NCBI RefSeq assembly: GCF_000160535.1 | Contig: NZ_GG704782.1 | Coordinates: 386,622-450,621, forward strand | DNA length: 64,000 nt | Source of the DNA: Hallella bergensis DSM 17361 | GTDB taxonomy: Bacteria > Bacteroidota > Bacteroidia > Bacteroidales > Bacteroidaceae | Direction: 5' to 3' | Shown: piece by piece, positions 1,336-63,921 of the stretch | Layout: every line of letters begins with the position of its first letter | Position numbering within the stretch: the stretch's first letter is position 1 | Notes under the pieces: model-generated | What the model was told of the DNA's origin: nothing | Database searches by the model: none | The model's input: the letters and a program-made list of their open reading frames with translations, nothing else | Translations under genes and position numbers: made by a program

Positions 1336-3438
1336 TCAGCTTATGGCAGACCAATTGATCTGTGTGTTTCTGAGTTCCTTGAGGTGGTTCCATAACAGGG
1401 AGTACTGTGCTTTTTCACAGTGTGGATCGTCGTCTATAATTTTCTGCGCTTCGTTTCGCGCCAGCTGCACAAGCTGACCATCGCGCGCAATGTCTGCGAT
1501 TTTCAGGTCGAAAGCAATCCCGCTTTGCTGTGTGCCCTCTAGATCACCGGGGCCGCGAAGTTTCAGGTCGGCTTCGGCAATACGGAATCCATCGTTGGTG
1601 TCGCACATGATGTCGATGCGCTTACGCGTTTCGGTGCTCAGCTCATAGCCTGTCACAAGCAGGCAATAGCTTTGGTCGGCTCCTCGCCCTACGCGTCCTC
1701 GTAACTGGTGGAGTTGGGAAAGGCCGAACCTCTGGGCATCGAGAATGACCATGACCGATGCATTGGGAACGTTTACCCCTACCTCGATAACGGTTGTAGC
1801 TACCAGGATTTGGGTCTCCCCGCTTACAAACTTTTGCATCTCGCTTTCCTTTTCGCTCGACTTCATCCGCCCGTGTACTTTGCTTAGTCGGAACTCCGGG
1901 AATATCTCGCATAGTTTCTTGTAGCCGTCTTCGAGGTTTTTCAGGTCACTTTTCTCGCTTTCCTCAATCAATGGGAAAACGATATAGACCTGCCTGCCCT
2001 CACGAACTTGCTGCCGAATACCATTATATAATGAGACGGTTTGGTTGTCGTATTTGTGGATGGTCATAATGGGCTTGCGCCCAGGTGGTAGTTCGTCGAT
2101 CACGCTTACGTCCAGATCGCCGTAGATAGTCATGGCCAGGGTGCGCGGAATAGGTGTTGCCGTCATCACGAGGATGTGCGGCGGATTCTCGCTTTTGGCC
2201 CAAAGTTTGGCGCGTTGTGCCACGCCAAAGCGGTGCTGCTCGTCCACCACGGCCATTCCCAGCCTCTTGAACTGTACGGTATCCTCGATGATGGCATGTG
2301 TGCCCACGAGTATATCGATGTTTCCTTCAGCCAGATTTTGCAGAATTTCCTTTCGCTTTTTCCCTTTCACAATGCCCGTCAACAACTCCACCCTCACGGG
2401 CATATTCCGTAGAAACGTACGTATAGTGTCAAGATGTTGCTCGGCAAGTATCTCTGTCGGAGCCATGATGCACGCCTGAAAGCCATTATCAATGGCAATG
2501 AGCATGGTCATCAGCGCAACCAGTGTCTTCCCGGAGCCCACGTCACCCTGCAACAATCTGTTCATCTGGTGCCCCGACCGCATGTCATCGCGTATCTCAT
2601 GCATTACCCGTTTTTGTGCTTGGGTCAGGTCGAAAGGTAGGTTCTCGTGAAAGAATTGATTAAAAATCGCACCTATCTTGTCAAAGACATATCCCTTGTA
2701 TTTGCGCCGATGTTCCGAGGCATATCGCAGGATGCTGAGCTGCACATAGAACAGTTCCTCGAGTTTCAAACGCACCTGCGCACGTTGTACATCGTCTAAT
2801 GATTTTGGATAGTGTATTTTGCGATAGGCATCTTCGCGTGATATCAGGTTTAATCGGCTAACCATTGATGGTAGCAGCGCTTCTTGAATTGCACCCTCTG
2901 GAATCCTCGACACGAGCGTTTTAGTCAGTCTTTCCACTGCCCTTGACTGCATTCCGCGTTTCTTCATCGTCTCCGTGGTGTTATAGTAAGGTTGCATTCT
3001 CATCTCCTCCGTTTTCAAGTCGGCCACCCGGTCAATCTCCGGGTGTGCGAACTGGTATCGTCCTTGATAGACGGAGGGTTTGCCGAAGACAATGTATTCT
3101 TCGCCCACCTTATAGTTTTTGTAGACATATTGTGCACCGCGGAACCACACCAGGTCTACGATTCCGAATCCGTCTGTAAAGTGGGCCACGACGCGTTTCT
3201 TGCGCGCACTCATCGGAAACTCCTCGAAACTGAGTATCTTTCCCTTGACCTGCACAAAGGGCATCTCGCCCGACAGTTCCATAATGCGGTATATTTTAGT
3301 GCGGTCCACATATTTGTAAGGGTAATATTCCAGCAGGTCGCCCCATGTATGGATGTTGAGTTCCTTGCTCAATATCTCTTTTTTCTTTGGTCCCACCCCG
3401 GGCAGATACATGATGTCTTGGTCAAGGATGCTCGTCAT
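1336..3438 (-). CDS. recG: ATP-dependent DNA helicase RecG
   Basis: A 700-residue RecG, full length for the family. It remodels stalled replication forks and Holliday junctions. The N-terminal wedge/OB region (about 1-160) begins with the helix-hairpin-helix-like segment YLPGVGPKKK. The helicase core has Walker A GDVGSGKT at 298-305, the DEQH box at 399-402 and the C-terminal helicase domain with the QLRGRVGRG motif. It lies 6 bp downstream of the ispD stop codon, so the two are very likely cotranscribed. Cytoplasmic. No odd residues seen. Confidence 0.97.
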   Translation of the reverse strand: MTSILDQDIMYLPGVGPKKKEILSKELNIHTWGDLLEYYPYKYVDRTKIYRIMELSGEMPFVQVKGKILSFEEFPMSARKKRVVAHFTDGFGIVDLVWFRGAQYVYKNYKVGEEYIVFGKPSVYQGRYQFAHPEIDRVADLKTEEMRMQPYYNTTETMKKRGMQSRAVERLTKTLVSRIPEGAIQEALLPSMVSRLNLISREDAYRKIHYPKSLDDVQRAQVRLKLEELFYVQLSILRYASEHRRKYKGYVFDKIGAIFNQFFHENLPFDLTQAQKRVMHEIRDDMRSGHQMNRLLQGDVGSGKTLVALMTMLIAIDNGFQACIMAPTEILAEQHLDTIRTFLRNMPVRVELLTGIVKGKKRKEILQNLAEGNIDILVGTHAIIEDTVQFKRLGMAVVDEQHRFGVAQRAKLWAKSENPPHILVMTATPIPRTLAMTIYGDLDVSVIDELPPGRKPIMTIHKYDNQTVSLYNGIRQQVREGRQVYIVFPLIEESEKSDLKNLEDGYKKLCEIFPEFRLSKVHGRMKSSEKESEMQKFVSGETQILVATTVIEVGVNVPNASVMVILDAQRFGLSQLHQLRGRVGRGADQSYCLLVTGYELSTETRKRIDIMCDTNDGFRIAEADLKLRGPGDLEGTQQSGIAFDLKIADIARDGQLVQLARNEAQKIIDDDPHCEKAQYSLLWNHLKELRNTQINWSAIS

Positions 3439-3444
3439 TGTGCA

Positions 3445-4116
3445 TTACGAATTATGTATTAACAACTCAGCTATCATCATGTCAAACGGGGTGGTGAGCT
3501 TCAGATTCTGCCTGTTTCCCTCCACCATCGTCACCTGGCATCCTAAGCTTTCTATCACGGATGCGTCGTCGGTAAACGTTTCTCGATAGGGCTGGTCGAA
3601 AGCCTGCTTGGCCAGTGATAGGTCGAAGCATTGAGGGGTTTGCACCGAACGAAAGTGGTCGCGCAAAACGTTGTGTCCATGGCCTCGGTCTATGTATCGC
3701 AGCGTGTCGGTAACCGGTACTACGGGGATGGCGGCAAAGTCGTCTCGGGCGGCATCGAAGCAGCGCTCGATCACGTCTGTCGACACAAACGGACGCACGC
3801 CATCGTGTATGGCCACCACGCCCTCATCCTCGTCGGGTATAAGTGCCAGTCCGTTTTTGGACGATTGGAAACGGGTTTCGCCGCCGTCAGCAACTTGGTG
3901 CATGATCTTGAAGTCGTGTTTCTGGCAGAGTTCCTGCCAGAATTCCTGCTGTTCTTTGGGTAGTACAAGGATTATCTTTAGTGCTGGGTCGTACTCGTGA
4001 AACCGCTCCATGGTGCGCATCAGCACCGGTTTGCCGCCTATGGGCAGGAACTGCTTGGGAATCTCGCCCCCCATGCGCAGTCCTTTGCCTCCGGCAACAA
4101 TGATGACATAGTCCAT
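3445..4116 (-). CDS. ispD: 2-C-methyl-D-erythritol 4-phosphate cytidylyltransferase
   Basis: A 223-residue IspD, the third step of the MEP isoprenoid pathway, joining CTP to 2-C-methyl-D-erythritol 4-phosphate. The N-terminal nucleotide-binding loop VAGGKGLRMGGEIPKQF carries the conserved Gly-rich segment, Arg and Lys. HDGVRPFV and TDDASVIE motifs follow, as expected. First gene of a two-gene operon with recG. Its last codons (ending LLIHNS) and the short gap to recG resemble the AT-rich AATTC-type repeats found elsewhere in the window, so its C-terminus may have been altered by repeat sequence; this is inference. Confidence 0.95.
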   Translation of the reverse strand: MDYVIIVAGGKGLRMGGEIPKQFLPIGGKPVLMRTMERFHEYDPALKIILVLPKEQQEFWQELCQKHDFKIMHQVADGGETRFQSSKNGLALIPDEDEGVVAIHDGVRPFVSTDVIERCFDAARDDFAAIPVVPVTDTLRYIDRGHGHNVLRDHFRSVQTPQCFDLSLAKQAFDQPYRETFTDDASVIESLGCQVTMVEGNRQNLKLTTPFDMMIAELLIHNS

Positions 4117-14381: not shown

Positions 14382-15626
14382 ATGAAGTTTGACATTGACA
14401 CATATCGTGAAATATTGGATACGCTCACCCGAAACAAGACGCGTTCGTTCCTCACTGGGTTCGGCGTTTTCTGGGGAGTGTTCATGTTGGTCGTACTTAT
14501 TGGTGGTGGCGATGGGCTGGAAGAGTTGTTGTCCAAAAACTTTCAGGGGTTTGCCACAAACTCTGCTTTCACTTTCGCTCAGCCCACCACCAAGCCTTAT
14601 GAGGGCTTCCGCAAAGGGCGTCAATGGAATATGACGTATAGGGATGTGGAGAGATTGCGTGCCCATGTGCCCGAGTTGGACATCGTCACTCCGTTGGTGA
14701 CAGAGTGGGGTAAAACCTTCGTGGCCGGCGATAAAAAGTTTGTGGGCAATGTCAAGGGCATTTATCCCGAATATGCCAAAGTAGAGGAGCCGACCATTTT
14801 ATATGGCCGTTACCTCAATGATATGGACATAGCGGAAGACCGTAAGGTTTGCGTGATAGGCAAGAAGGTTTACAAGACACTCTTCCCCAACGGTGGAGAC
14901 CCGTGCGGACAGCTGGTGCGCGTAGACTCATTGTATTTCAACGTGGTGGGTGTGGATTACAGTCCGGGAAACATGAACATCAATGGCAACGTGCAGGAAA
15001 GTGTCACGATTCCGCTCACTATCATGCAGCGGGTCTATAATTTGGGCGATGTGGTACACATCATTTGTGTCACGGGCAAGCCCGGTGTGACCATGGGCAA
15101 ACTGGCGCAACCCCTGCGAGAAGTCATCGGGAGGGCACATCGTGTAGATCCGACCGATGAGAAGGCTATCTCGGTCTTCAATACCGAGGTGATGTATGGC
15201 ATGGTAGACAGCTTGTTTAAGGGTGTCAACTTCCTGATTTGGCTGGTTGGAATAGGTACGTTGCTGGCTGGGGGCATCGGTGTTTCAAACATCATGATGG
15301 TCACGGTACGCGAGCGCACCACCGAGATTGGCATCAGGCGAGCCATCGGAGCCACGCCCAAGATGATACTGTCGCAAATCGTTTCGGAGAGCATCGCACT
15401 CACCACGGTGGCTGGCATGAGCGGCATACTGCTCGCGGTGTTCGTCTTGCAGATGCTCGAGGTGGCCAATACCACCGACGGCATCATGGCGGCTCACTTC
15501 CAAATCGGATTCTGGGCCGCACTCGGAGCGCTGGCTTTCCTTTGTGTGTTGGGTGTGGTGGCCGGCCTTGCGCCTGCCATCAGGGCCATGAGCATCAAGC
15601 CGGTGGATGCCATGAGAGATGAGTAA
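14382..15626 (+). CDS. ABC transporter permease, MacB/FtsX type (2)
   Basis: A 414-residue paralogue of the upstream permease with the same one-plus-three helix layout and periplasmic domain. The family segment GVSNIMMVTVRERTTEIGIR occurs near residue 305. Its stop codon TAA (15624-15626) overlaps the first heptamer of a 32-bp AATTCAN repeat module, so the 3' end has been reached by a dispersed repeat. Followed about 100 bp later by the adaptor gene. Confidence 0.9.
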   Translation: MKFDIDTYREILDTLTRNKTRSFLTGFGVFWGVFMLVVLIGGGDGLEELLSKNFQGFATNSAFTFAQPTTKPYEGFRKGRQWNMTYRDVERLRAHVPELDIVTPLVTEWGKTFVAGDKKFVGNVKGIYPEYAKVEEPTILYGRYLNDMDIAEDRKVCVIGKKVYKTLFPNGGDPCGQLVRVDSLYFNVVGVDYSPGNMNINGNVQESVTIPLTIMQRVYNLGDVVHIICVTGKPGVTMGKLAQPLREVIGRAHRVDPTDEKAISVFNTEVMYGMVDSLFKGVNFLIWLVGIGTLLAGGIGVSNIMMVTVRERTTEIGIRRAIGATPKMILSQIVSESIALTTVAGMSGILLAVFVLQMLEVANTTDGIMAAHFQIGFWAALGALAFLCVLGVVAGLAPAIRAMSIKPVDAMRDE

Positions 15627-15656
15627 TTCATAATTCACAATTCAAAATTCATAATT
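15625..15656 (+). repeat. 32-bp heptamer module 1 (AATTCAN x4 + AATT)
   Basis: Four heptamers (AATTCAT, AATTCAC, AATTCAA, AATTCAT) then AATT. The first AA belongs to the TAA stop codon of the permease at 15624-15626. Degenerate AATTATA/AATTCAT remnants continue to about 15722, next to the adaptor start codon. Confidence 0.85.
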
Positions 15657-20558: not shown

Positions 20559-20646
20559 GTCTCACGTTCGACAGACAAGCGTGCGTCGGACGCGAGACGC
20601 GTGTCCGTCGGCCGCAAGACGACCGTCTGTCGGCCGATAGACGTCA
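20559..20646. repeat. Four tandem 22-bp palindromic units (block 2)
   Basis: Four 22-bp units, each with an 18-bp palindromic body; the best is GTCTGTCGGCCGATAGAC at 20625. A weak fifth unit may precede at 20537. Block sits in the 580-bp gap between the divergent amylase and PagL-like genes. Same family as 7638-7725 and 63834-63921. Confidence 0.8.
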
Positions 20647-25300: not shown

Positions 25301-26166
25301 TGAAACTGAAGTTCCACGAGGCGTTTAAGGGCACTTTTGAATCGCTGGGCATCAATCCGGACAGATGGAAGAGCAATTCACAATTCACAATTCACAATTC
25401 ACAATTGAAAACTCCGAGGGCGGCTATTATTCGTGAGAAAGGTACCAATGGAGAACGCGAGATGGCCTATACCCTTTGGCTGGCAGGCTTCGAGGTGAAG
25501 GACGTGATGATGACCGACCTCATCAGTGGGCGCGAAACCTTGGAGGATGTCAATATGATCGTGTTCTGTGGAGGTTTCTCTAATTCCGACGTGCTTGGTT
25601 CGGCAAAGGGGTGGGCAGGTGCTTTCCTCTTCAATCCCAAGGCCAAGGAGGCCCTCGATAAGTTCTATGCACGCAAGGATACGTTAAGCCTTGGTATCTG
25701 TAATGGATGTCAGCTGATGGTAGAACTCAACCTGATCAATCCAGAACATGAGCATCGTGCTCAGATGTTGCACAACAAGAGCCAAAAGTTCGAGAGTCAG
25801 TTCCTCGGTCTGACCATTCCGCAGAACAATAGCGTGATGTTGGGAAGCCTCAGTGGGGACAAACTCGGTATCTGGGTGGCCCATGGAGAAGGTCAGTTCT
25901 CGCTGCCAGAATCCGAAGACAAATATAACGTCGTGGCGAAGTACAGCTATGCCGAGTATCCGGGCAACCCCAACGGAAGCGACTACAATGTGGCCGGTAT
26001 TTGCTCGGCCGATGGTCGCCACTTGGCCATGATGCCCCATCCGGAACGTGCCGTGCTGCCTTGGCAGAACGCCTATTACCCTGCTAAACGGCGAGCAGAC
26101 GAGGTGACTCCATGGATGGAAGCCTTTGTCAACGCTCGCAAGTGGGTGGAGGAACGTCTTTCATAA
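22330..26166 (+). CDS. purL: Phosphoribosylformylglycinamidine synthase (large single-chain form)
   Basis: A 1278-residue FGAM synthase, the fourth step of purine synthesis, converting FGAR, glutamine and ATP to FGAM. It is the long fused form: N-terminal PurS-like domain, linker with INSEHCRHKIF, two AIR-synthase-like halves (AETHNFPTTVEPF, GTGGEIRDR) and a C-terminal glutamine amidotransferase domain from about 1030 with nucleophile Cys in GICNGCQLM and a final HPER segment. Residues 1016-1026, between the synthase part and the amidotransferase, are encoded by a 32-bp AATTCAC heptamer repeat read in frame. The enzyme otherwise looks intact. Confidence 0.97.
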   Translation: MILFFKTPQENIIATEIDHQPSEQETQALCWLFGGATLLKSEKLEGCFVGPRREMITPWSTNAVEITQNMSLDGILRIEEYFPVQSEDADHDPMLQRMYKGLDQTVFTVNHEPEPIKQVDSLEQFNEQEGLALSPEEIQYLHKIEKQNGRPLTDSEIFGFAQINSEHCRHKIFGGTFIIDGEERESSLFALIKKTTKENPGKILSAYKDNVAFAQGPTVEQFAPADQSTSDWFQVKPIESVISLKAETHNFPTTVEPFNGAATGTGGEIRDRMGGGVGSWPIAGTAVYMTSYPRIEKANTSRGWEKNIEPRKWLYQTPEQILIKASNGASDFGNKFGQPLITGSVLTFEYETSSADSVTCPNGSPIQPEGQETATPQIYGYDKVIMLASGVGYGKKRDCLKKEPRKGNKVVVVGGDNYRIGLGGGSVSSVDTGRYSNGIELNAVQRANPEMQKRAYNLIRALVEEESNPVVSVHDHGSAGHLNCLSELVEECGGEIDMTQLPIGDKTLSAKEIIANESQERMGLLIDEKHLDHVQKIAERERAPMYVVGETTGDAHFSFIQGDGVKPFDLDVAQMFGHSPKTVMKDDTVVRRYEDASYSADKIDEYLSNVLQLEAVACKDWLTNKVDRSVTGKVARQQTQGQIQLPLSDCGVVALDYRGDKGIATALGHAPQVAMADPAAGSVMSVAESLTNIVWAPIATDNVHPSPVRNLSLSANWMWPCRSQKGEDARLYEAVQALSDFCCDLGLNVPTGKDSLSLTQQYPDGTKIIAPGTVIVTSGGEVSDVRKVVSPVMVNDKNSSLYYIDFSFDKMRLGGSAFAQTLGKIGSDVPTVRNAEYFADCFNAVQELIKKGWIMAGHDISAGGLITTLLEMTFANVEGGMRVNLYDLDAEEQDVVKMLFAENPGVVIQVSDNHKKDLREFFEDNGIGYAKIAYPTPSERKIVVKKGDFEHEFDIDALRDTWYMTSYLLDRNQSMNGMADKRFANYKHQPLKLKFHEAFKGTFESLGINPDRWKSNSQFTIHNSQLKTPRAAIIREKGTNGEREMAYTLWLAGFEVKDVMMTDLISGRETLEDVNMIVFCGGFSNSDVLGSAKGWAGAFLFNPKAKEALDKFYARKDTLSLGICNGCQLMVELNLINPEHEHRAQMLHNKSQKFESQFLGLTIPQNNSVMLGSLSGDKLGIWVAHGEGQFSLPESEDKYNVVAKYSYAEYPGNPNGSDYNVAGICSADGRHLAMMPHPERAVLPWQNAYYPAKRRADEVTPWMEAFVNARKWVEERLS
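25375..25406 (+). repeat. 32-bp heptamer module 2, inside purL
   Basis: Four perfect AATTCAC heptamers plus AATT, in frame, encoding NSQFTIHNSQL. It falls exactly in the interdomain linker before the glutaminase domain, where an insertion is tolerable. Same module as at 15625, 34864, 41558, 44094 and 44695. Confidence 0.9.
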
Positions 26167-34669: not shown

Positions 34670-34895
34670 AATTTTGAATTATGAATTGTGAATTAAAAAG
34701 TCCTCCGCTCGGCTTCGCCGAATCTAAGAATATCCGGAGAATATCTGTTCGTGAGTGCAAAGCTAATCGCAGAAAATCTCACATTCTTGCTTCGCAAGAT
34801 TAATCTTAGAATATCTCCACACCCTACATGTGATAACGAATTTTGAATCACACCGCGCAGCCTAATTGTGAATTATGAATTATGAATTTTGAATT
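34670..34895. repeat. Heptamer-bounded hairpin element between malQ and GH97
   Basis: This fills the 301-bp gap. A 25-bp heptamer array (34670-34694) and a full 32-bp module (34864-34895) flank about 170 bp holding CTTCGCCGAATC, AATATCCGGAGAATATC, TTGCTTCGCAA and AATCTTAGAATATCT. The same motifs occur in the same order at about 41379-41491. The malQ stop codon (34894-34896) overlaps the module. Confidence 0.8.
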
Positions 34896-41118: not shown

Positions 41119-41149
41119 GTATTGCCGACAATTAAGAGTGAAGAAAGAA

Positions 41150-41240
41150 GAATATAAGTAAGTGAAGAGGGAAGAATGAAGAATGAAGAGGGAAGAGGGA
41201 AAAGTGAAGAATGAAGAGGGAAGAGAGAAGAATCAACGCG
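41150..41240. repeat. Purine-rich GAAGAGGGAAGAATGAA repeat tract
   Basis: Imperfect tandem GAAGAGGGAAGAATGAAG-type units in a strongly purine-biased stretch; a shorter relative (GAGTGAAGAGTGAAGAAC) is at 41521. No coding potential seen. Confidence 0.6.
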
Positions 41241-41374
41241 TTAGCCTAATTGTGAATTTTGAATTTTGATGAGTTGATGAGCTTGCGAATAATTATGAAT
41301 TGCAAACGCGTTAGCCTAATTGTAAATTTTGAATTTTGACGAGTTCATGAGCTTGCGAATAATTGTGAGTTGAA
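41235..41374. repeat. Two 70-bp tandem repeat units with heptamers
   Basis: Two copies with an exact 70-bp period, each starting AACGCGTTAGCCTAATTG and containing AATTTTG heptamers and GAGCTTGCGAATAATT. The same start motif, CGCG(C/T)AGCC before AATTGTG, also precedes the modules at 34864 and 41558. Confidence 0.75.
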
Positions 41375-41378
41375 TATT

Positions 41379-41491
41379 CCTCCGCTCGTCTTCGCCGAAT
41401 CTTAGAATATCCGGAGAATATCTTTTCTTGAATGAATGGCTCATCGTAGAATATCCTCCCGTTTGCTTCGCAAACAATCTTAGAATATCTG
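41379..41491. repeat. Hairpin-rich element, second copy
   Basis: Shares CTTCGCCGAATC, TTAGAATATCCGGAGAATATC, a TTGCTTCGCAA hairpin and AATCTTAGAATATCTgCC with the element between malQ and GH97, in the same order and direction. (The second motif is given here to 20 informative bases.) Unknown function. Confidence 0.7.
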
Positions 41492-41557: not shown

Positions 41558-41645
41558 AATTGTGAATTGAAAATTGTGAATTGTGAATTGCAAAGGATTG
41601 TGAATTGCAAAGGATTGTGAATTGCAAAGGATTTTGAATTGTATG
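41558..41645. repeat. 32-bp heptamer module 4 plus 17-bp tandem repeats
   Basis: 41558-41589 is a full module in the GTGAATT orientation, identical to the one at 44695-44726. It runs into three copies of a 17-bp unit GATTGTGAATTGCAAAG. The rest of the gap (41646-41940) shows no gene I can support. Confidence 0.8.
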
Positions 41646-42044: not shown

Positions 42045-42611
42045 TTATAGATTGATAGCTACGGTGACGCCCCCTGGCCCCACGCCGACGCTGTATTGGC
42101 TGTGCTCGCCGGTAATCTTGTCGCCTATCCAATAGCCCAAAATCGTTCCCCCAACACCGATGGCGGCTCCCGCAGCCACGTCGTGCCAATGGTGGCGGTT
42201 GCGCGCCACGCGGTCGACGGCAACGCCTGTGGCCACGGCATAGCCTGCCACACTAATCCATGGAGAAACCTGCCGGAACTCCTTGTCGAGTATCGTGGCA
42301 CCGGCAAAAGCTATGGAGGTGTGGCCGGAGGGAAACGAGCGGCGGTCGGTGTGGTCGGGTCGACGCTCGCGGACGGCAAGCTTTATTGCCCAAGTGGCAG
42401 TGGCTGTGAAGGCCAGGGAAGCTCCGCTATTCACCACGAAGCGCTTCCACGAACTGGCACTCTCCACGCCACACGCTTTCAGCGTGAAAGCTGAGGCTAC
42501 GGGAACAAAGCGCAACCAGTCGTCTGCGCCGTCGCCATGATAGGGCTTTTGCGCATGGGCCGAAATGGTCGCAGCGCAAAAGCCGGTCACGAGCAATGTT
42601 TTAATACTCAT
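42045..42611 (-). CDS. PAP2-family membrane phosphatase
   Basis: A 188-residue PAP2 acid phosphatase with the three family motifs: KLAVRERRP, RSFPSGHTS and the VDRVARNRHHWHDV segment (Arg, His, Asp). Signal or first membrane segment at 1-20, with additional hydrophobic helices. Likely dephosphorylates a lipid pyrophosphate or phosphatidyl substrate at the periplasmic face. Start overlaps the stop of the MFS gene by 4 bp (ATGA), so translation is probably coupled. Why it is joined to a sugar carrier is not clear. Confidence 0.88.
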   Translation of the reverse strand: MSIKTLLVTGFCAATISAHAQKPYHGDGADDWLRFVPVASAFTLKACGVESASSWKRFVVNSGASLAFTATATWAIKLAVRERRPDHTDRRSFPSGHTSIAFAGATILDKEFRQVSPWISVAGYAVATGVAVDRVARNRHHWHDVAAGAAIGVGGTILGYWIGDKITGEHSQYSVGVGPGGVTVAINL

Positions 42612-44107
42612 GCCTTGACATCTTTAATAAGGGGCACCGCCAAGGCTCCTAACGCCAAACTGACGCCGGCCACAATCATCATGTGGCTCTGCACGCTGCC
42701 CACCATACCGAGAATGATTCCTCCGACAGATGCGGCCACAATCTGCGGGATGCAAATCGTGCCATTGAACAGGCCGAGATAGGCTCCCATGTGACCGTAG
42801 CCTTGCAGGGCATTGGTGACGAAGGTGAAGGGCATGGCCAGCATGGCAGCCCATGCACAACCAATTAGCAGGAAGGGAATGAACAGCAGGTAGGGGTCGT
42901 GGACAAAGGCGCACCACACAAAGCCCACACCGCCCAGCAGCAGGCTTGCGGCGTAGGCCATCTTGCGGTTGCTGAACTTGGGCAGGATCGGAGCCCATAT
43001 CACGGAGCCGATGGCTTGCACGGCGAAGAGTATGCCTACCCAGTTTCCGGCCGACTGGTAGCCGGCACTGGTTACGTCGGTGGTGCCCCAGCAGTTGGCG
43101 GCTACCGTTCCGTTGGTGTAGGTCCACATATACATGAACGCAAACCAGCAGAAGAATTGTACAAGGCCGACCTTCCAGAACGTAGAGGGGGCGTTCCGGA
43201 GCATATTGTACACCCATGCAAATGTCTTAAACAATTTTCCGAAGAAGATTTGCCAAATTAGGTTGCCCTCAGATTTCTTCCTAATGTTAATAATTAAGTA
43301 TATAAAATTTACTATAATGAACAATCCTGATAGGCAAAGGAAGAATATCAAATAAAACATATAAGCACCTACCAAATGCATCCCTTTTAGTTCATCTTTA
43401 TATTTGAAATCCTTTTTTTCTTCTTTCGCACCATTGTATGTCTCAAACTCCACAGGCTCCCATTCCTTTACCTTGCTTACCGTATAGAGGACACAGAGGA
43501 TAAGGATGGCGGCACCTACGTAGAAACTGTAGATCACGGAGTCGGGGACAATCCCCTTGGGCGCGGTGTTGGCGATGCCAATAAAAGCAAAGAAGAACGG
43601 GAAGACAAAACCTACCAACGAGCCTGCGTTGCACAGGAAACTTTGAATGGAGTAGGCTTTGGCTTTCTGTTTCTCGTTGACCATATCGCCCACGAGCATC
43701 TTAAAGGGTTGCATGGCCATATTAATCGAAGTGTCAAGAAACATCAGGGCGACAAGTCCAAATATCATGGCCGTAGACACAGCCATGCCAAACGAGCCGG
43801 CGTTGGGCAGTAGGCACATCACCAGGACGGCTGCTGCGGCTCCGATGAAGAGATAGGGGATGCGGCGCCCCCAGCGCGTCCATGTTTTATCGGAGCACGA
43901 ACCGACGATGGGCTGTACGATGATGCCCATCAAGGGTGGTAGAATCCAGAAATAACTCAAACTGTGAGGATCGGCGCCCAAGGTGGCGAAAATCCTCGAA
44001 ATGTTGGCACTCTGCAGGGCATACGCAATCTGCACGCCGAAGAAACCGAAACTGAGGTTCCATAAACCCCAGAAAGACTGGTCGGGCTTTTTTAATTCAC
44101 AATTCAT
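42608..44107 (-). CDS. MFS sugar transporter, SLC45/GPH-like (maltose/sucrose type)
   Basis: A 499-residue inner-membrane carrier of 12 helices. The opening segment SFWGLWNLSFGFFGVQIAYA and DKTWTRWGRRIPYLFIGA are typical of SLC45-like disaccharide carriers of Bacteroidetes. In this starch locus it probably imports maltose or short maltodextrins from the periplasm. The annotated ATG (44107-44105) and residues MNCELK are encoded by a heptamer repeat module (44094-44125), so the native start was apparently replaced or extended. A real start further in cannot be excluded. Confidence 0.88.
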   Translation of the reverse strand: MNCELKKPDQSFWGLWNLSFGFFGVQIAYALQSANISRIFATLGADPHSLSYFWILPPLMGIIVQPIVGSCSDKTWTRWGRRIPYLFIGAAAAVLVMCLLPNAGSFGMAVSTAMIFGLVALMFLDTSINMAMQPFKMLVGDMVNEKQKAKAYSIQSFLCNAGSLVGFVFPFFFAFIGIANTAPKGIVPDSVIYSFYVGAAILILCVLYTVSKVKEWEPVEFETYNGAKEEKKDFKYKDELKGMHLVGAYMFYLIFFLCLSGLFIIVNFIYLIINIRKKSEGNLIWQIFFGKLFKTFAWVYNMLRNAPSTFWKVGLVQFFCWFAFMYMWTYTNGTVAANCWGTTDVTSAGYQSAGNWVGILFAVQAIGSVIWAPILPKFSNRKMAYAASLLLGGVGFVWCAFVHDPYLLFIPFLLIGCAWAAMLAMPFTFVTNALQGYGHMGAYLGLFNGTICIPQIVAASVGGIILGMVGSVQSHMMIVAGVSLALGALAVPLIKDVKA

Positions 44108-44222
44108 AATTTACAATTCACAATTAAAGCATACCGTTAGGTTTGCTATGTGGTTTTTATGTGGTTTTACTTTCATGCTATTTACATTTAAAGCATCACA
44201 CGTGGGGTTTGCTATGTGGAGT

Positions 44223-44594
44223 TTATTTCATTTTATTTTCTTTCGATGTTGATTTTACAATAGACATCAGCAATTTACAAATTTCTACACAGTCATTATT
44301 CATGCTCATGTATTCTTGTTCAGAAATGTATGAAACTTGGAACAATAATTCAAGCCAATAGTTGGACTCTTCTGCTTCGCGCAAAGCAATACTCATTTTT
44401 GCATGAAAATCCGGTCGGCTTTGTGCCCTTAGTGCTTCCCGGGCATTAGCTCCTATGCTCGTGCCACATTTTAATATCTGGCTTGCCAAATCAAATTCAC
44501 AGTATTTTTCACGTAAAAACCGAGCCAATTTCACACTACGAACAGCGAAAGCCATACTTTTCATTATGATAACATTATCACATATTTCCTTCAT
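44223..44594 (-). CDS. Four-helix bundle protein (S23/IVP, bAvd-like family)
   Basis: A 123-residue, mostly helical protein of the family first found in 23S rRNA intervening sequences and related in fold to bAvd of diversity-generating retroelements. Family hallmarks: SMAFAVRSVKLARFL, LASQILKCGTSIGANAREA and the EAEESNYWLELL helix. No reverse transcriptase or rRNA is nearby. It lies inside the repeat-bounded unit 44094-44726, inserted between the LacI and MFS genes. Function unknown; a nucleic-acid-binding role is plausible. Confidence 0.85.
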   Translation of the reverse strand: MKEICDNVIIMKSMAFAVRSVKLARFLREKYCEFDLASQILKCGTSIGANAREALRAQSRPDFHAKMSIALREAEESNYWLELLFQVSYISEQEYMSMNNDCVEICKLLMSIVKSTSKENKMK

Positions 44595-44620
44595 ATCCTA
44601 CTGAATAATTGCGGATTAAA

Positions 44621-44708
44621 AATTCTTTATTATGAATTAGGTAGTGCATTAATTGCGATTTTAAAATTCTTCATTATGAATTAGGTATTGCATTAATTGT
44701 GAATTGAA
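44621..44708. repeat. 44-bp tandem duplication
   Basis: Two copies starting at 44621 and 44665 (AATTCTTTATTATGAATTAG versus AATTCTTCATTATGAATTAG), running into the right-hand 32-bp module. Part of the candidate cassette. Confidence 0.7.
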
Positions 44709-44724
44709 AATTGTGAATTGTGAA

Positions 44725-45750
44725 TTACCTCGTTGTTCCCCGTATCACAAGTCTCGTTCTCACAATTTTCTTCTCCACCTTGTCCATTGGAGTTATGCCT
44801 TCCACCTTGTTAATTAGGATATTGGCAGCCTCTTCCCCGACGCGGACGCCCCGCTGCTCCACAGTGGTGAGCATGGGGTCGCAGGCCACAGCGCGCTGCC
44901 CGTTGGTGAAGCCGCAGATAGAAATGTCCTCCGGAACACGATAGCCCATGCGCTTGGCGGTATAGAGAATGCCAATGGCTGTATCGTCGTTCACGGCAAA
45001 GAAGCTGTCGGGAATCTCTTCCTGCTGAAGGAGCTCGGGAGTGATTGCCTCGGCATCGGCACGGTTGTCGCAGATGCGGAAAAAGTTATCGTTGGGCTTG
45101 AGTCCCTTTCGGAGCATGGCATCACGGTAGCCGTTGTAGCGGTTTTTAGAAATTTCGAGAGTCATCGGCGAACTATAGAATGCAATGCGACGGCAGCCGG
45201 TTTCGATCAGATAAGTCACAGCATTGAAGGCTCCCTGATAGTCATCCACCACCACGCGGCTGCAGTCGACACCGGTGCAGATGCGATCGTAGAACACAAG
45301 GGGCATGCCATGGTCGATGAGTTTTTGGAAATGGTCGTAGCTCTGGGTGTTCTTGGCTTGTGAAACAATCACTCCGCAAACCTTGTGTTCGTAGAACCGC
45401 TCGCAAAGCAACACCTCACGGTTGAACTGCTCGGCACTTTGCCCTACCATCACAATATATCCTCGGGAGGCGGCTTCTTGCTCAATGCCACTCAGGACGG
45501 AGGAAAAATAGAAATGCGTGAGCTGGGGAATAATGACGCCAATGATTTTCAGAGGCTTCTTGCGCCCACTGCGCAAACTCTCCGCCAGAACGTTAGGATA
45601 ATAATTATGCTCCCGCGCGTAAGCCTTTATCCTATCGCGCTGAGGCTTGCTGATGCGGGGACTGTCTTTCAGGGCGCGCGAAACCGTAGCCACAGACACG
45701 CCAAGAGCCTCGGCGATATCCTTCATTGTTATCGGTATAGGTTGTTCCAT
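44725..45750 (-). CDS. LacI family transcriptional regulator
   Basis: A 341-residue regulator with an N-terminal HTH (ITMKDIAEALGVSVATVSRA, residues 7-26), hinge around 50-60 (NVLAESLRSGRK) and a periplasmic-binding-protein-like sensor domain. Divergent from susC. A near-palindromic operator lies midway between its promoter and that of susC and recurs at the amylase and malQ promoters, so it is the likely starch-regulon regulator in place of SusR. Its stop codon TAA (complement 44725-44727) is formed at the edge of a heptamer module. Confidence 0.93.
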   Translation of the reverse strand: MEQPIPITMKDIAEALGVSVATVSRALKDSPRISKPQRDRIKAYAREHNYYPNVLAESLRSGRKKPLKIIGVIIPQLTHFYFSSVLSGIEQEAASRGYIVMVGQSAEQFNREVLLCERFYEHKVCGVIVSQAKNTQSYDHFQKLIDHGMPLVFYDRICTGVDCSRVVVDDYQGAFNAVTYLIETGCRRIAFYSSPMTLEISKNRYNGYRDAMLRKGLKPNDNFFRICDNRADAEAITPELLQQEEIPDSFFAVNDDTAIGILYTAKRMGYRVPEDISICGFTNGQRAVACDPMLTTVEQRGVRVGEEAANILINKVEGITPMDKVEKKIVRTRLVIRGTTR

Positions 45751-56885: not shown

Positions 56886-59132
56886 ATGAGCACCATTTAT
56901 TTATGTATTGTCGTATTCCTGCTGTGTTTGGCAGTGTTCGATCTCTTTGTGGGCGTGAGCAATGACGCCGTGAATTTTCTCCAGTCGGCCGTAGGAGCCA
57001 ACGTGGCCACGTTCCGCACCATACTCATCATTGCATCGTGTGGGGTTGCCTGCGGCGCTGTGCTGTCCTCGGGTATGATGGATGTGGCCCGGCATGGTAT
57101 TATGATGCCCGTGAACTATTCGTTCGAGGAGGTTATCACCATTTTCCTGGCCGTTATGGTGACCGACGTGCTGATACTCGATGTATTCAACACGCTTGGC
57201 ATGCCCACATCGACCACGGTATCGTTGGTTTTTGAATTGCTGGGAGGTACGTTTATTCTTGCGACCATCAAGATGGTTGGCGACGACAGCCTCGACTACG
57301 GCAACCTGCTCAACAGCAGTCATGCGCTGAAAACGATCATTGCCATTTTTGTCAGCGTCGGTATAGCTTTCTTCTTTGGAGTGATTGTGATGTGGATATC
57401 GCGTGTGATATTCACCTTTAACTACAAGTTGCACGCTAAGTTTACCATTGCTGTGTTTGGCGGAATTGCCTTCACGGCATTGGCTTATTTCATTTTCCTC
57501 AAGGGGTTGGGCAAGAGTCCCTATATTTCAGAGGCAACAAGAGACTACATTCAGGCTAACACGGGCATGCTGCTTGTCTATACCTTCATCATCTCGACCA
57601 TTCTGATGGAAATCCTTCATCTGCTGCGTGTGCACATCTTCAAGTTAGTGGTGCTCATGGGAACGTTTGCCTTGGCCATGGCCTTTGCAGGCAACGACTT
57701 GGTGAACTTCATCGGTGTGCCGTTGGCCGGGCTCGATTCCTATCAGGATTTCACGGCCAACGCGGGCGGAGCATCGGCTTCGGAGTTCATGATGGTGTCG
57801 CTTATGGAGAGCGCCAAGACACCCCCTGCCTTCCTGATGGCGGCCGGACTTATCATGATTATAGCCATGGCAACCTCGAAGAAGGCCCACAACGTGATCA
57901 AAACCTCTGTGGACCTGAGCCGACAAGATGAGGGTGACGAGATGTTCGGGTCGTCGAGTGCGGCTCGCAGCATCGTTCGCTTCAGTCAGAACGGTGGATC
58001 GTGGTTTGAACAGGTGCTTCCTTCGCGTATCCGCCAGTGGATTGGCAGCCGGTTTGACAGAAGTGAGGTGATACTCGACGAGGGTGCGGCATTCGACACG
58101 GTGCGGGCATCGGTCAATCTTGTGCTGGCAGCCATGATCATCACCATCGGTACTAACTACAAGTTACCCTTGTCCACAACATACGTCACCTTCATGGTGG
58201 CCATGGGTACCAGCTTGGCCGACCGCGCATGGAGCCGCGAGAGTGCGGTGTTCCGTGTGACGGGTGTGCTGAGTGTCATCGGAGGATGGTTCATTACGGC
58301 GGGAGCGGCTTTCCTTGCCTGTGCAGCGGTGTGTGTGATCATGTTCTATGGCGGCATCATTGTTCAGGTGGCATTTATGGTTTTAGTGATTATTACTCTC
58401 ATTCGCTCCAACCGAAAATATGCCAAGAAAGCTGCAAGGAATAACAAGACCAGTCTGTTCAATCTCATGATGCGCACCCGTGATGCCGATTTGGTGTGGG
58501 ATATGCTGCGCGGACAGGTAACCAAGACGCAGGCATTTGTCAACGGTTTTGCCCAGAAGGAGTTCAACCGCATCATAGACGGCTTTGCCAATCAGGACGT
58601 GCGCTCGTTGCGTCGCAGCAAGAAGGAGCTTGTTAATGAACAGGCGATGCTGAAGAAGTTTCGCCGACAGGAAATGCTGGGATTGAAGAGGTCGCCTGTT
58701 GATGTTGCCATTGAGCGGAACACGTGGTTCCATCTCGGTGCCAACTCTAATCAGCAGTTTATCTACAGTCTTCGCCGCATGCTCGATCCTATCAAGGAAC
58801 ATGTGGACAACAATTTCAACCCACTGCCTCCCGAATATATCAACGAGTTTGAACCCGTGCGCAGAAGAATCAATGAGCTTATGAAGATGGCACAGAACAT
58901 TATCGAGGCCAGACAATATGACAATTATCGGAACGTCTTGGCCGAGGCGGATTTCTGCAGGGATGAGTTGTCGGAGCTGCGGAAACGGCACATCGACCGT
59001 ATTCAGCAGACGGAGAATAACCGGATGCTTCAGGTGTCTCTCGTGTATCTAAATATGTTGCAGGAGAGCCAGGAATTTTTGAATGCCATGCGCCATCAGT
59101 TGCGTGCAGTGAAGAAGTTCATGGAGAATTAA
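56886..59132 (+). CDS. PiT family inorganic phosphate transporter with PhoU-like tail
   Basis: A 748-residue inner-membrane phosphate carrier of the large Bacteroidetes form. The two inverted PiT signatures are GVSNDAVNFLQSAVGA (about 24-39) and AGNDLVNFIGVPLAG (about 269-283). The last ~230 residues (from about 520) are helical and resemble a PhoU-like regulatory domain. Its stop codon lies inside a perfect 22-bp tandem duplication, and a strong hairpin follows. Upstream of a TonB receptor and a beta-helix lipoprotein. Confidence 0.92.
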   Translation: MSTIYLCIVVFLLCLAVFDLFVGVSNDAVNFLQSAVGANVATFRTILIIASCGVACGAVLSSGMMDVARHGIMMPVNYSFEEVITIFLAVMVTDVLILDVFNTLGMPTSTTVSLVFELLGGTFILATIKMVGDDSLDYGNLLNSSHALKTIIAIFVSVGIAFFFGVIVMWISRVIFTFNYKLHAKFTIAVFGGIAFTALAYFIFLKGLGKSPYISEATRDYIQANTGMLLVYTFIISTILMEILHLLRVHIFKLVVLMGTFALAMAFAGNDLVNFIGVPLAGLDSYQDFTANAGGASASEFMMVSLMESAKTPPAFLMAAGLIMIIAMATSKKAHNVIKTSVDLSRQDEGDEMFGSSSAARSIVRFSQNGGSWFEQVLPSRIRQWIGSRFDRSEVILDEGAAFDTVRASVNLVLAAMIITIGTNYKLPLSTTYVTFMVAMGTSLADRAWSRESAVFRVTGVLSVIGGWFITAGAAFLACAAVCVIMFYGGIIVQVAFMVLVIITLIRSNRKYAKKAARNNKTSLFNLMMRTRDADLVWDMLRGQVTKTQAFVNGFAQKEFNRIIDGFANQDVRSLRRSKKELVNEQAMLKKFRRQEMLGLKRSPVDVAIERNTWFHLGANSNQQFIYSLRRMLDPIKEHVDNNFNPLPPEYINEFEPVRRRINELMKMAQNIIEARQYDNYRNVLAEADFCRDELSELRKRHIDRIQQTENNRMLQVSLVYLNMLQESQEFLNAMRHQLRAVKKFMEN

Positions 59133-59158
59133 ACAGAAGTTCATGGAGAATTAAACAG
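59115..59158 (+). repeat. Perfect 22-bp tandem duplication at the PiT stop codon
   Basis: 59115-59136 and 59137-59158 are identical. The first copy holds the last codons and stop (TAA 59130-59132); the second is non-coding. Looks like a recent slippage event. Confidence 0.9.
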
Positions 59159-59193
59159 AATCCTGCCGGCTGGTCATGCAGCCGGCAGGATTC
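59158..59193 (+). terminator. 15-bp perfect hairpin after the PiT gene
   Basis: GAATCCTGCCGGCTG (59158-59172) pairs with 59179-59193 over a 6-nt loop. No U-run, but very stable. Confidence 0.65.
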
Positions 59194-63833: not shown

Positions 63834-63921
63834 GTCTAACGGCCGCAGTACGCTTGTCTAACGGCTGCAGTACGCTTGTCTAACGGCCGCAGTACACCTG
63901 TATCGCGGCCGTCAGCCCATG
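63834..63921. repeat. Four tandem 22-bp palindromic units (block 3)
   Basis: Unit body GTCTAACGGCCGCAGTAC plus a 4-bp spacer, starting at 63834, 63856, 63878 and 63900 (last copy degenerate). Member of the family at 7638 and 20559. It runs into the stop codon of the leftward gene at the window edge. Confidence 0.85.

Follow-up and report, generated by a model that had tools for sequence, protein, structure and literature searches.

Intergenic heptamer repeats include the short tandemly repeated repetitive (STRR) sequences of cyanobacteria. TAACTGA heptamers lie between the genes of Beggiatoaceae, Cyanobacteria, and Bacteroidetes, and the cited sections of PMC4679880 give no settled partner or way of spread for them. 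Also known are the layout of RAYT genes with their REPINs (PMC3116915) and the occurrence of S23 open reading frames (ORFs) in rRNA intervening sequences (IVSs); in the 23S rRNA IVS of Coxiella, the S23 ORF lies between pairing terminal inverted repeats and is preceded by heptamers (PMC4990558). Our searches of the open-licence literature found no paper connecting S23 or four-helix-bundle genes with such repeats; PMC4679880, PMC2700814, and PMC4853749 do not name S23 in their main texts. Here, we analyzed a 64,000-nucleotide stretch of Hallella bergensis DSM 17361 (contig NZ_GG704782.1, positions 386,622 to 450,621; hereafter the window), in which a cassette at 44094-44726, between a lacI-type regulator ORF and a major facilitator superfamily (MFS) transporter ORF, carries an S23 gene between inverted rows of heptamer boxes.

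The cassette resembles the S23-bearing 23S rRNA IVSs in that its ORF lies between inverted ends that pair in RNA, here in a predicted fold. Unlike them, it is located between protein genes and not inside a 23S rRNA gene, sits at stop and start codons, and has box modules at both ends with many gene-less modules genome-wide. As in the RAYT/REPIN layout, one gene is flanked by its own inverted repeat, gene-less copies are dispersed, and the motif matches the gene; however, the cassette carries no HuH transposase, its repeat is a row of boxes instead of a REP palindrome, and inverted pairs, the often cited doublets of REPINs, are a minority here. With the TAACTGA and STRR repeats it shares tandem heptamers that adjoin start and stop codons and are scattered in many copies in the same phyla, whereas the TAACTGA work names no partner gene or mobile unit in the sections cited (PMC4679880). 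VIPR repeat RNAs were considered as well and rejected, because they use a RAMP protein and pentanucleotide repeats and so are not the S23 system (PMC13142463, as excerpted).

The cassette and its protein

The left end of the cassette, which is 5' on the transcribed strand, is a five-box AATTCAN-type module at 44695-44726 on the minus strand, and the right end at 44094-44125 is the same module inverted (plus strand). The two are inverted copies with 30 of 32 positions equal, each comprising five AATT boxes at 7-bp spacing; when lengthened to 39 nt, the ends are 92% complementary. The upstream neighbor, lacI (44725-45750, minus strand), ends in the sequence CGAGG TAA TTCACAATT, in which the stop codon is read as T|AATTCAC. 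Everything after the T is module, and the first bases of the left end therefore finish the lacI stop codon. The right end contains the ATG of the downstream MFS ORF (42608-44107, minus strand), and the cassette joins both neighbors directly with zero spare DNA. Two 44-nt direct repeats with worn boxes (44606-44693, minus strand) separate the left end from the S23 start. In the predicted fold of the cassette RNA, the right arm pairs with 30 of the 32 bases of the left arm.

The sole ORF of the cassette (44223-44594, minus strand; 123 aa) encodes an S23/IVP four-helix bundle, and no HuH tyrosine transposase gene was found in the cassette. Family scans matched PF05635 (E 7.1e-25; 87.7 bits versus a cut-off of 33.8) and TIGR02436 (102.1 bits versus a cut-off of 24). 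The fold model (predicted local distance difference test score 89.6) was nearest to structure 2RLD (Z 19.9, 0.9 Å over 108 residues), followed by 2GSC (Z 18.2). It also matched Avd of diversity-generating retroelements (4DWL, 8UB7), with Z 14.5 and 1.7 Å over 109 residues for 4DWL, the next row reaching only 11.9; this likeness is one of fold, at 13% identity. The preliminary description, made from the letters of the window, had proposed a 633-bp segment with inverted 32-bp repeats, a single S23/IVP gene, one end on the lacI stop, the other supplying the MFS start codon, and a fold kinship to Avd, all of which these data bear out.

The entries 2RLD and 2GSC comprise five chains each, and Xcc0516 (2GSC) is reported to be a homopentamer (PMC4990558). 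The S23-family structures date from 2006 and 2007 and came without a function. Among 36 usable gene pairs, the ratio of nonsynonymous to synonymous substitutions (dN/dS) had a median of 0.07 and a maximum of 0.14, which indicates that the S23 protein is maintained by strong purifying selection and suggests more than a selfish role.

Inverted box arrays around S23 genes across genomes

S23 genes occurred in 175 of 200 genomes of the genus and in 232 of 296 Bacteroidota genomes. From score-ranked best-N lists, and thus not at random, 166 S23 ORFs were collected (161 distinct proteins, 158 with 100 bp of flank on both sides); no S23 ORF was obtained at L187, L190, and L241. Same-site copies from several species were kept, and counts are therefore not independent. 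For each gene, the best inverted match between its 250-bp flanks was scored, and the 99th percentile of 511 control genes, which were drawn from lacI loci and from L197-L256 and include some orthologous copies, served as the threshold. Controls replaced a mismatched-pair null, which was dropped because the loci share motifs. Inverted flanks above the threshold were found at 78 of 101 genus loci and 5 of 8 plasmid loci but at only 6 of the 511 controls. Hence, the association between modules and S23 genes, which had been put forward as a check, was recovered across genomes.

The genus loci came as two samples, which we call families A and B, the latter being the family of the cassette's own gene. 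In family B, the best upstream period was 7 in 28 of 29 loci; in family A it was 8 in 20 of 30 loci, and otherwise 6, 7, 9, or 10. With the AATT pattern alone, 29 of the first 30 family-A loci showed no array, and arrays emerged once other motifs were allowed. Exact runs of at least four boxes at period 7 were present in 129 of 318 S23 flanks versus 37 of 1022 control flanks. At the other periods the corresponding counts were 23 versus 20 (period 8), 8 versus 6 (period 10), and 1 versus 0 (period 12), with none at periods 5, 6, and 11. Period 9 was rejected as an S23-linked spacing, since such runs were commoner in controls (25/1022) than in S23 flanks (4/318).

Of 25 plasmid records with a match, 10 were analyzed (from Cyanobacteria, Treponema, Monoglobus, Bernardetia, and Chlorohelix). 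Nine of these loci were readable, and in all nine the gene had period-7 arrays, of other motifs, on either side. Four plasmid loci (L187, L192, L193, and L194) carried family-B S23 genes within defence operons, between HsdS and HsdR, DrmD and PglX, a helicase and an N-6 methylase, and cas2 and cas1 (opposite strand), respectively. Viral contigs (three stretches) gave no relative.

The array motif follows the S23 protein

Of 159 S23 genes, 126 had a clear upstream array and were compared pairwise. Similarity of the S23 proteins predicted similarity of the arrays (rho 0.30, 7875 pairs; reached in 0 of 500 permutations). When pairs in homologous contexts were removed, the relation held in the remaining 7609 pairs (rho 0.27, 0 of 300 permutations), and the share of alike arrays climbed from below 1% to 68% in the top bin of protein similarity (n = 19). 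These comparisons indicate that the array motif goes with the S23 protein sequence even between unrelated sites.

Genome-wide copy numbers of three motifs were then set against the motif at the S23 gene in 54 genomes, each classed by a single S23 locus. AATTCA was present in 155, 90, 23, 0, 110, and 6 copies in the genomes whose S23 gene bears it; the 40 other genomes had a median of 1 copy and at most 45. The matching genomes held 213, 203, 111, 100, and 85 copies of AATTGA versus a median of 3 in 41 others (maximum 150), and 98, 0, 17, 0, 4, and 6 copies of AGTTGAC versus a median of 0 in 40 others (maximum 21); P values for the three motifs were 0.0075, 2.2e-4, and 0.0032, respectively. Eight genomes in which the profile search found no S23 gene had 2, 6, and 0 matches in total to AATTCA, AATTGA, and AGTTGAC, although one of them (G144) gave one weaker S23 match in a protein search (E 2e-6).

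Placement at stop and start codons

Among the genus cassettes, the upstream gene was codirectional in 96 of 99 and the downstream gene in 84 of 99, and none was antisense to both. At L197-L236 the corresponding fractions were 37/38 and 31/38, compared with 70 same-strand pairs among 103 neighbor pairs. The left array started within 10 nt of the upstream stop codon in 69 of the 91 loci that passed the filters, while the right array overlapped the next start codon in 21 of 72 and ended 1-30 nt before it in a further 49. Because neither 7 nor 8 is a multiple of 3, a row of boxes meets all reading frames, and by arithmetic motifs that contain TAA, TAG, or TGA stop all of them. Where the motif contains no stop (AGTTCAC), the upstream ORF continues into the array (L146 and L150).

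Empty sites and the same site in relatives

The lacI-MFS junction was surveyed in the best 80 of 380 lacI relatives. An S23 gene preceded the MFS gene in eight, the MFS gene was present without S23 in 70, and two ended too early; a profile search returned the same eight carriers and none further. The proposed inspection of this junction for empty sites thus gave many of them. The cassette ends consisted of AATT heptamers starting at the lacI stop in L048, L057, L058, and L060, and of AATGCAT-type heptamers mirrored on both sides in L056, L121, and L125 (mixed with AATTCAT in L121); those of L053 were worn. In L059 and L061, the lacI-MFS gap has no S23 gene and is filled by mirrored GTTGACAA-type arrays, as if a family-A-type cassette had lost its gene. 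In KA00344, the S23 gene at the lacI site (L048:6282-6539) is shortened by an internal TAA, and the second S23 gene (G282:C61) is intact.

A second family-B cassette of KA00344 lies between genes that we take, from their proteins, to be ispD-like and recG-like. At this place the window has only a worn heptamer array (3435-3460, minus strand), which contains the stop of the ispD-like ORF (3445-4116) and the start of the recG-like ORF (1336-3438). Three further loci in three genomes (L153, L154, and L155) have S23 proteins 86-96% identical with like arrays. L153 and L155 share 96% of their S23 residues in unrelated contexts, and their flanks match only in two short array-like hits; in L153 and L154 the cassettes are one gene apart in the same operon, before versus after a nucleotidyltransferase-like gene. 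Most other similar S23 pairs represent one site inherited. In L153 (G109), a family-A-like ORF lies in the same operon, one gene upstream of the family-B cassette.

A junction that we take to be frdA-frdB carried a family-A cassette in 15 S23 loci. Its motif varies by species, and the two arms match each other (own arms 16.5 versus 8.5 across species, P 6e-6); a left-versus-left arm comparison was dropped, because homologous coding sequence was part of what was compared. The junction survey started from 70 loci (30 best matches and 40 picked by hand), of which 65 were parsed, the copy of H. bergensis itself (L306) not being among them. The junction measured 1-6 bp in 26, 7-60 bp in 23, 61-439 bp in 10, and 451-538 bp in 6, and a profile search found S23 ORFs in exactly the six longest, a weak L279 match lying elsewhere. 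The alignment of L276 with L278 shows an insert of 533 bp placed at the stop codon; between L277 and L278, 4 bp are replaced. Close relatives thus give clean empty sites at this junction, as judged from the aligned sequences.

Gene-less modules in the window and the genome

The preliminary description had counted four more copies of the 32-bp module in the window without the gene, and all four were located. Solo five-box modules occupy 15625-15656 (plus strand, beginning at the stop codon of a plus-strand ORF), 25375-25406 (plus strand), 34864-34895 (minus strand, beginning at the stop codon of a minus-strand ORF), and 41558-41589 (minus strand); a four-box module lies at 34670-34694 (minus strand). 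A loose four-box pattern had 241 forward matches in the genome compared with 1 for the reversed-pattern control, which excludes a chance origin of the modules. Only one S23 gene was found in this genome.

Runs of at least four boxes were counted in the window together with 19 more stretches of the genome, most of them picked by the four-box pattern: 6 had four boxes, 41 had five, and 1 each had six, nine, and eleven. Since box counts peak at five (41/50), the module is a fixed unit rather than the outcome of random slippage. Of the 50, 12 begin at a stop codon in sense and 6 end at a start codon in antisense, with 0 in the opposite polarity; the remainder lie at neither, by crude gene calls. 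Neighboring modules formed 15 direct and 6 inverted pairs, and direct pairs or triples of five-box modules, spaced by 14-18 bp, are frequent in stretches L262, L263, L264, L266-L268, and L270.

Five-box peaks recurred with other motifs, namely in 28 of 38 AATTGA arrays listed for G331 and in 18 of 36 arrays of the 8-bp AGTTGAC type listed for G086. TRAP, an unrelated protein, binds repeat RNA and supplies the idea that box number may equal subunit number; by this analogy, each box could correspond to one subunit of an S23 pentamer. A Geobacter figure legend also describes sites of five tandem heptanucleotide repeats (PMC2700814).

Other repeats were seen in the window. A 95-nt unit, starting each time at AATT boxes, occurs twice at 84% identity (34684-34778 and 41361-41455), and a further period-7 array (AATGAAG type, about 14 copies) adjoins AATT modules at 41130-41233. 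Arrays of 22-bp units of other sequence lie at 63834-63909, 20573-20643, and 59113-59160.

Discussion

The S23 gene and its ends recur together as a unit for which both gene-less relatives and clean empty sites exist, and comparative evidence of this kind indicates that the unit is an element. The suggestion in the preliminary description of an element with gene-less derivatives is accordingly supported by the abundant gene-less modules, the cross-genome link to S23 genes, and the empty sites. Neither of the two outcomes that it named as fatal to the idea was observed. Long residence together with strong selection indicates that the element is tolerated or useful.

We consider it probable that the cassette is a small mobile, RAYT/REPIN-like element whose S23 ring reads the five-box ends, akin to the 23S rRNA IVSs. 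The segment would be one copy of a widespread element made of an S23/IVP gene between inverted, often five-box modules with 7- or 8-bp spacing. A ring of five S23 subunits would bind the module, one subunit per box, either on DNA or on the RNA stem formed by both ends, and the bound ring would mark the element so that host enzymes copy or insert it. The left end would restore a stop codon and the right end, in many cases, a start codon, and insertion into an operon junction would therefore do little harm. Solo modules would relate to the cassette as REPINs do to RAYT genes, being derivatives that are non-autonomous or have decayed, and 23S rRNA IVSs with S23 ORFs would represent the same element type in rRNA.

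Several observations weigh against this reading. We infer both binding and movement from the comparison of genomes, and two family scans of the S23 protein showed neither a known nuclease nor a known recombinase domain. Insertion sequences and miniature inverted-repeat transposable elements have inverted ends with a target-site duplication; the cassette has inverted ends, and no duplication above 1 bp was seen at the one frdA-frdB-like site aligned (L276/L278). The low dN/dS and the long stay at one site also fit a host function. The Bacteroidota sample was weak, with 14 of 49 loci above the inverted-flank threshold, although its scores still exceeded those of controls (median 12.5 versus 8.0, P 9e-22), and 33 of the 159 S23 genes had no clear upstream array. 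Some matching genomes had few copies of their motif (AATTCA: G029 with 0 and G067 with 6; AGTTGAC: G016 and G026 with 0), whereas G315, picked for another motif, held the 150 copies of AATTGA; G179, G027, and G134 were likewise AATTGA-rich though picked for another motif, the class of each resting on a single S23 locus. No significant difference in AGTTGAC copies separated the other genomes from the S23-free ones (P 0.11). Finally, the arms that flank S23 genes vary in box number: at period 7, a 3-base core gave four boxes in 29 and five in 43 of 204 arms, and a 4-base core gave four boxes in 44 and five in 27.

Alternatively, the S23 ring could serve the host as a post-transcriptional regulator. 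By binding to box arrays in intergenic mRNA, it would adjust how the following gene is translated or processed; the flanks of the S23 gene would be autoregulatory sites, and the modules would have spread because they are useful. Such a regulon accords with the strong purifying selection and with the closeness of modules to stop and start codons, and a regulator has been proposed for the TAACTGA repeats of Beggiatoaceae in the cited part of PMC4679880. Nevertheless, the RNA reads AAUUCAN after stop codons and NUGAAUU before start codons, so that a single-strand site would cover only one class. Cassettes and their arms are also found together, as units, in unrelated contexts, and empty sites are common. 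We therefore regard the regulon as rather doubtful on its own.

If the cassette were instead an intron-like spacer of the kind known from 23S rRNA, its arms would pair in the mRNA and RNase III would remove the S23 part, splitting the operon message; the RNA would then matter and not the protein. The predicted arm pairing agrees with this, as does the fact that the arms stay matched to each other while the motif changes, and the Coxiella IVS combines a 28-bp terminal stem, RNase III excision, and tandem heptamers before its S23 ORF (PMC4990558). This explanation appears unlikely in view of the strong selection on the S23 protein, the solo gene-less modules, which cannot form the stem, and a motif that follows the protein sequence. 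That short tandem arrays are common intergenic filler among which the S23 gene merely happens to lie is highly improbable: 5% of control upstream flanks do score above 17.5, and nearly all arrays in this genome lack an S23 gene, but inverted flanks were found at 78 of 101 genus loci versus 6 of 511 controls, the motif follows the protein, and S23-free genomes are almost devoid of the three motifs.

Thus, an S23 ring that binds the modules, with mobility supplied by host enzymes, ranks highest and is the explanation we lean toward, and both regulation and RNA spacing could hold alongside it. A broader version can be offered only tentatively. It would make the cassette a new type of mobile element, spread over several phyla and without a transposase of its own, whose pentamer ring recognizes the five-box ends with each subunit on one box and directs sense insertion to stop codons, perhaps via an RNA copy. 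The heptamer repeats of Cyanobacteria, Beggiatoaceae, and Bacteroidetes would be its footprints, the 23S rRNA IVSs its rRNA-borne members, and its motif would drift with the protein. If so, this drift would supply a natural graded series of matched proteins and repeats. Because S23 genes go with such repeat ends in many bacteria, the family is a candidate partner for the short intergenic repeats that have remained puzzling. If S23 genes and heptamer repeats do belong together, the function of the one and the partner and spread of the other both become testable, and a very common gene family gains a role.

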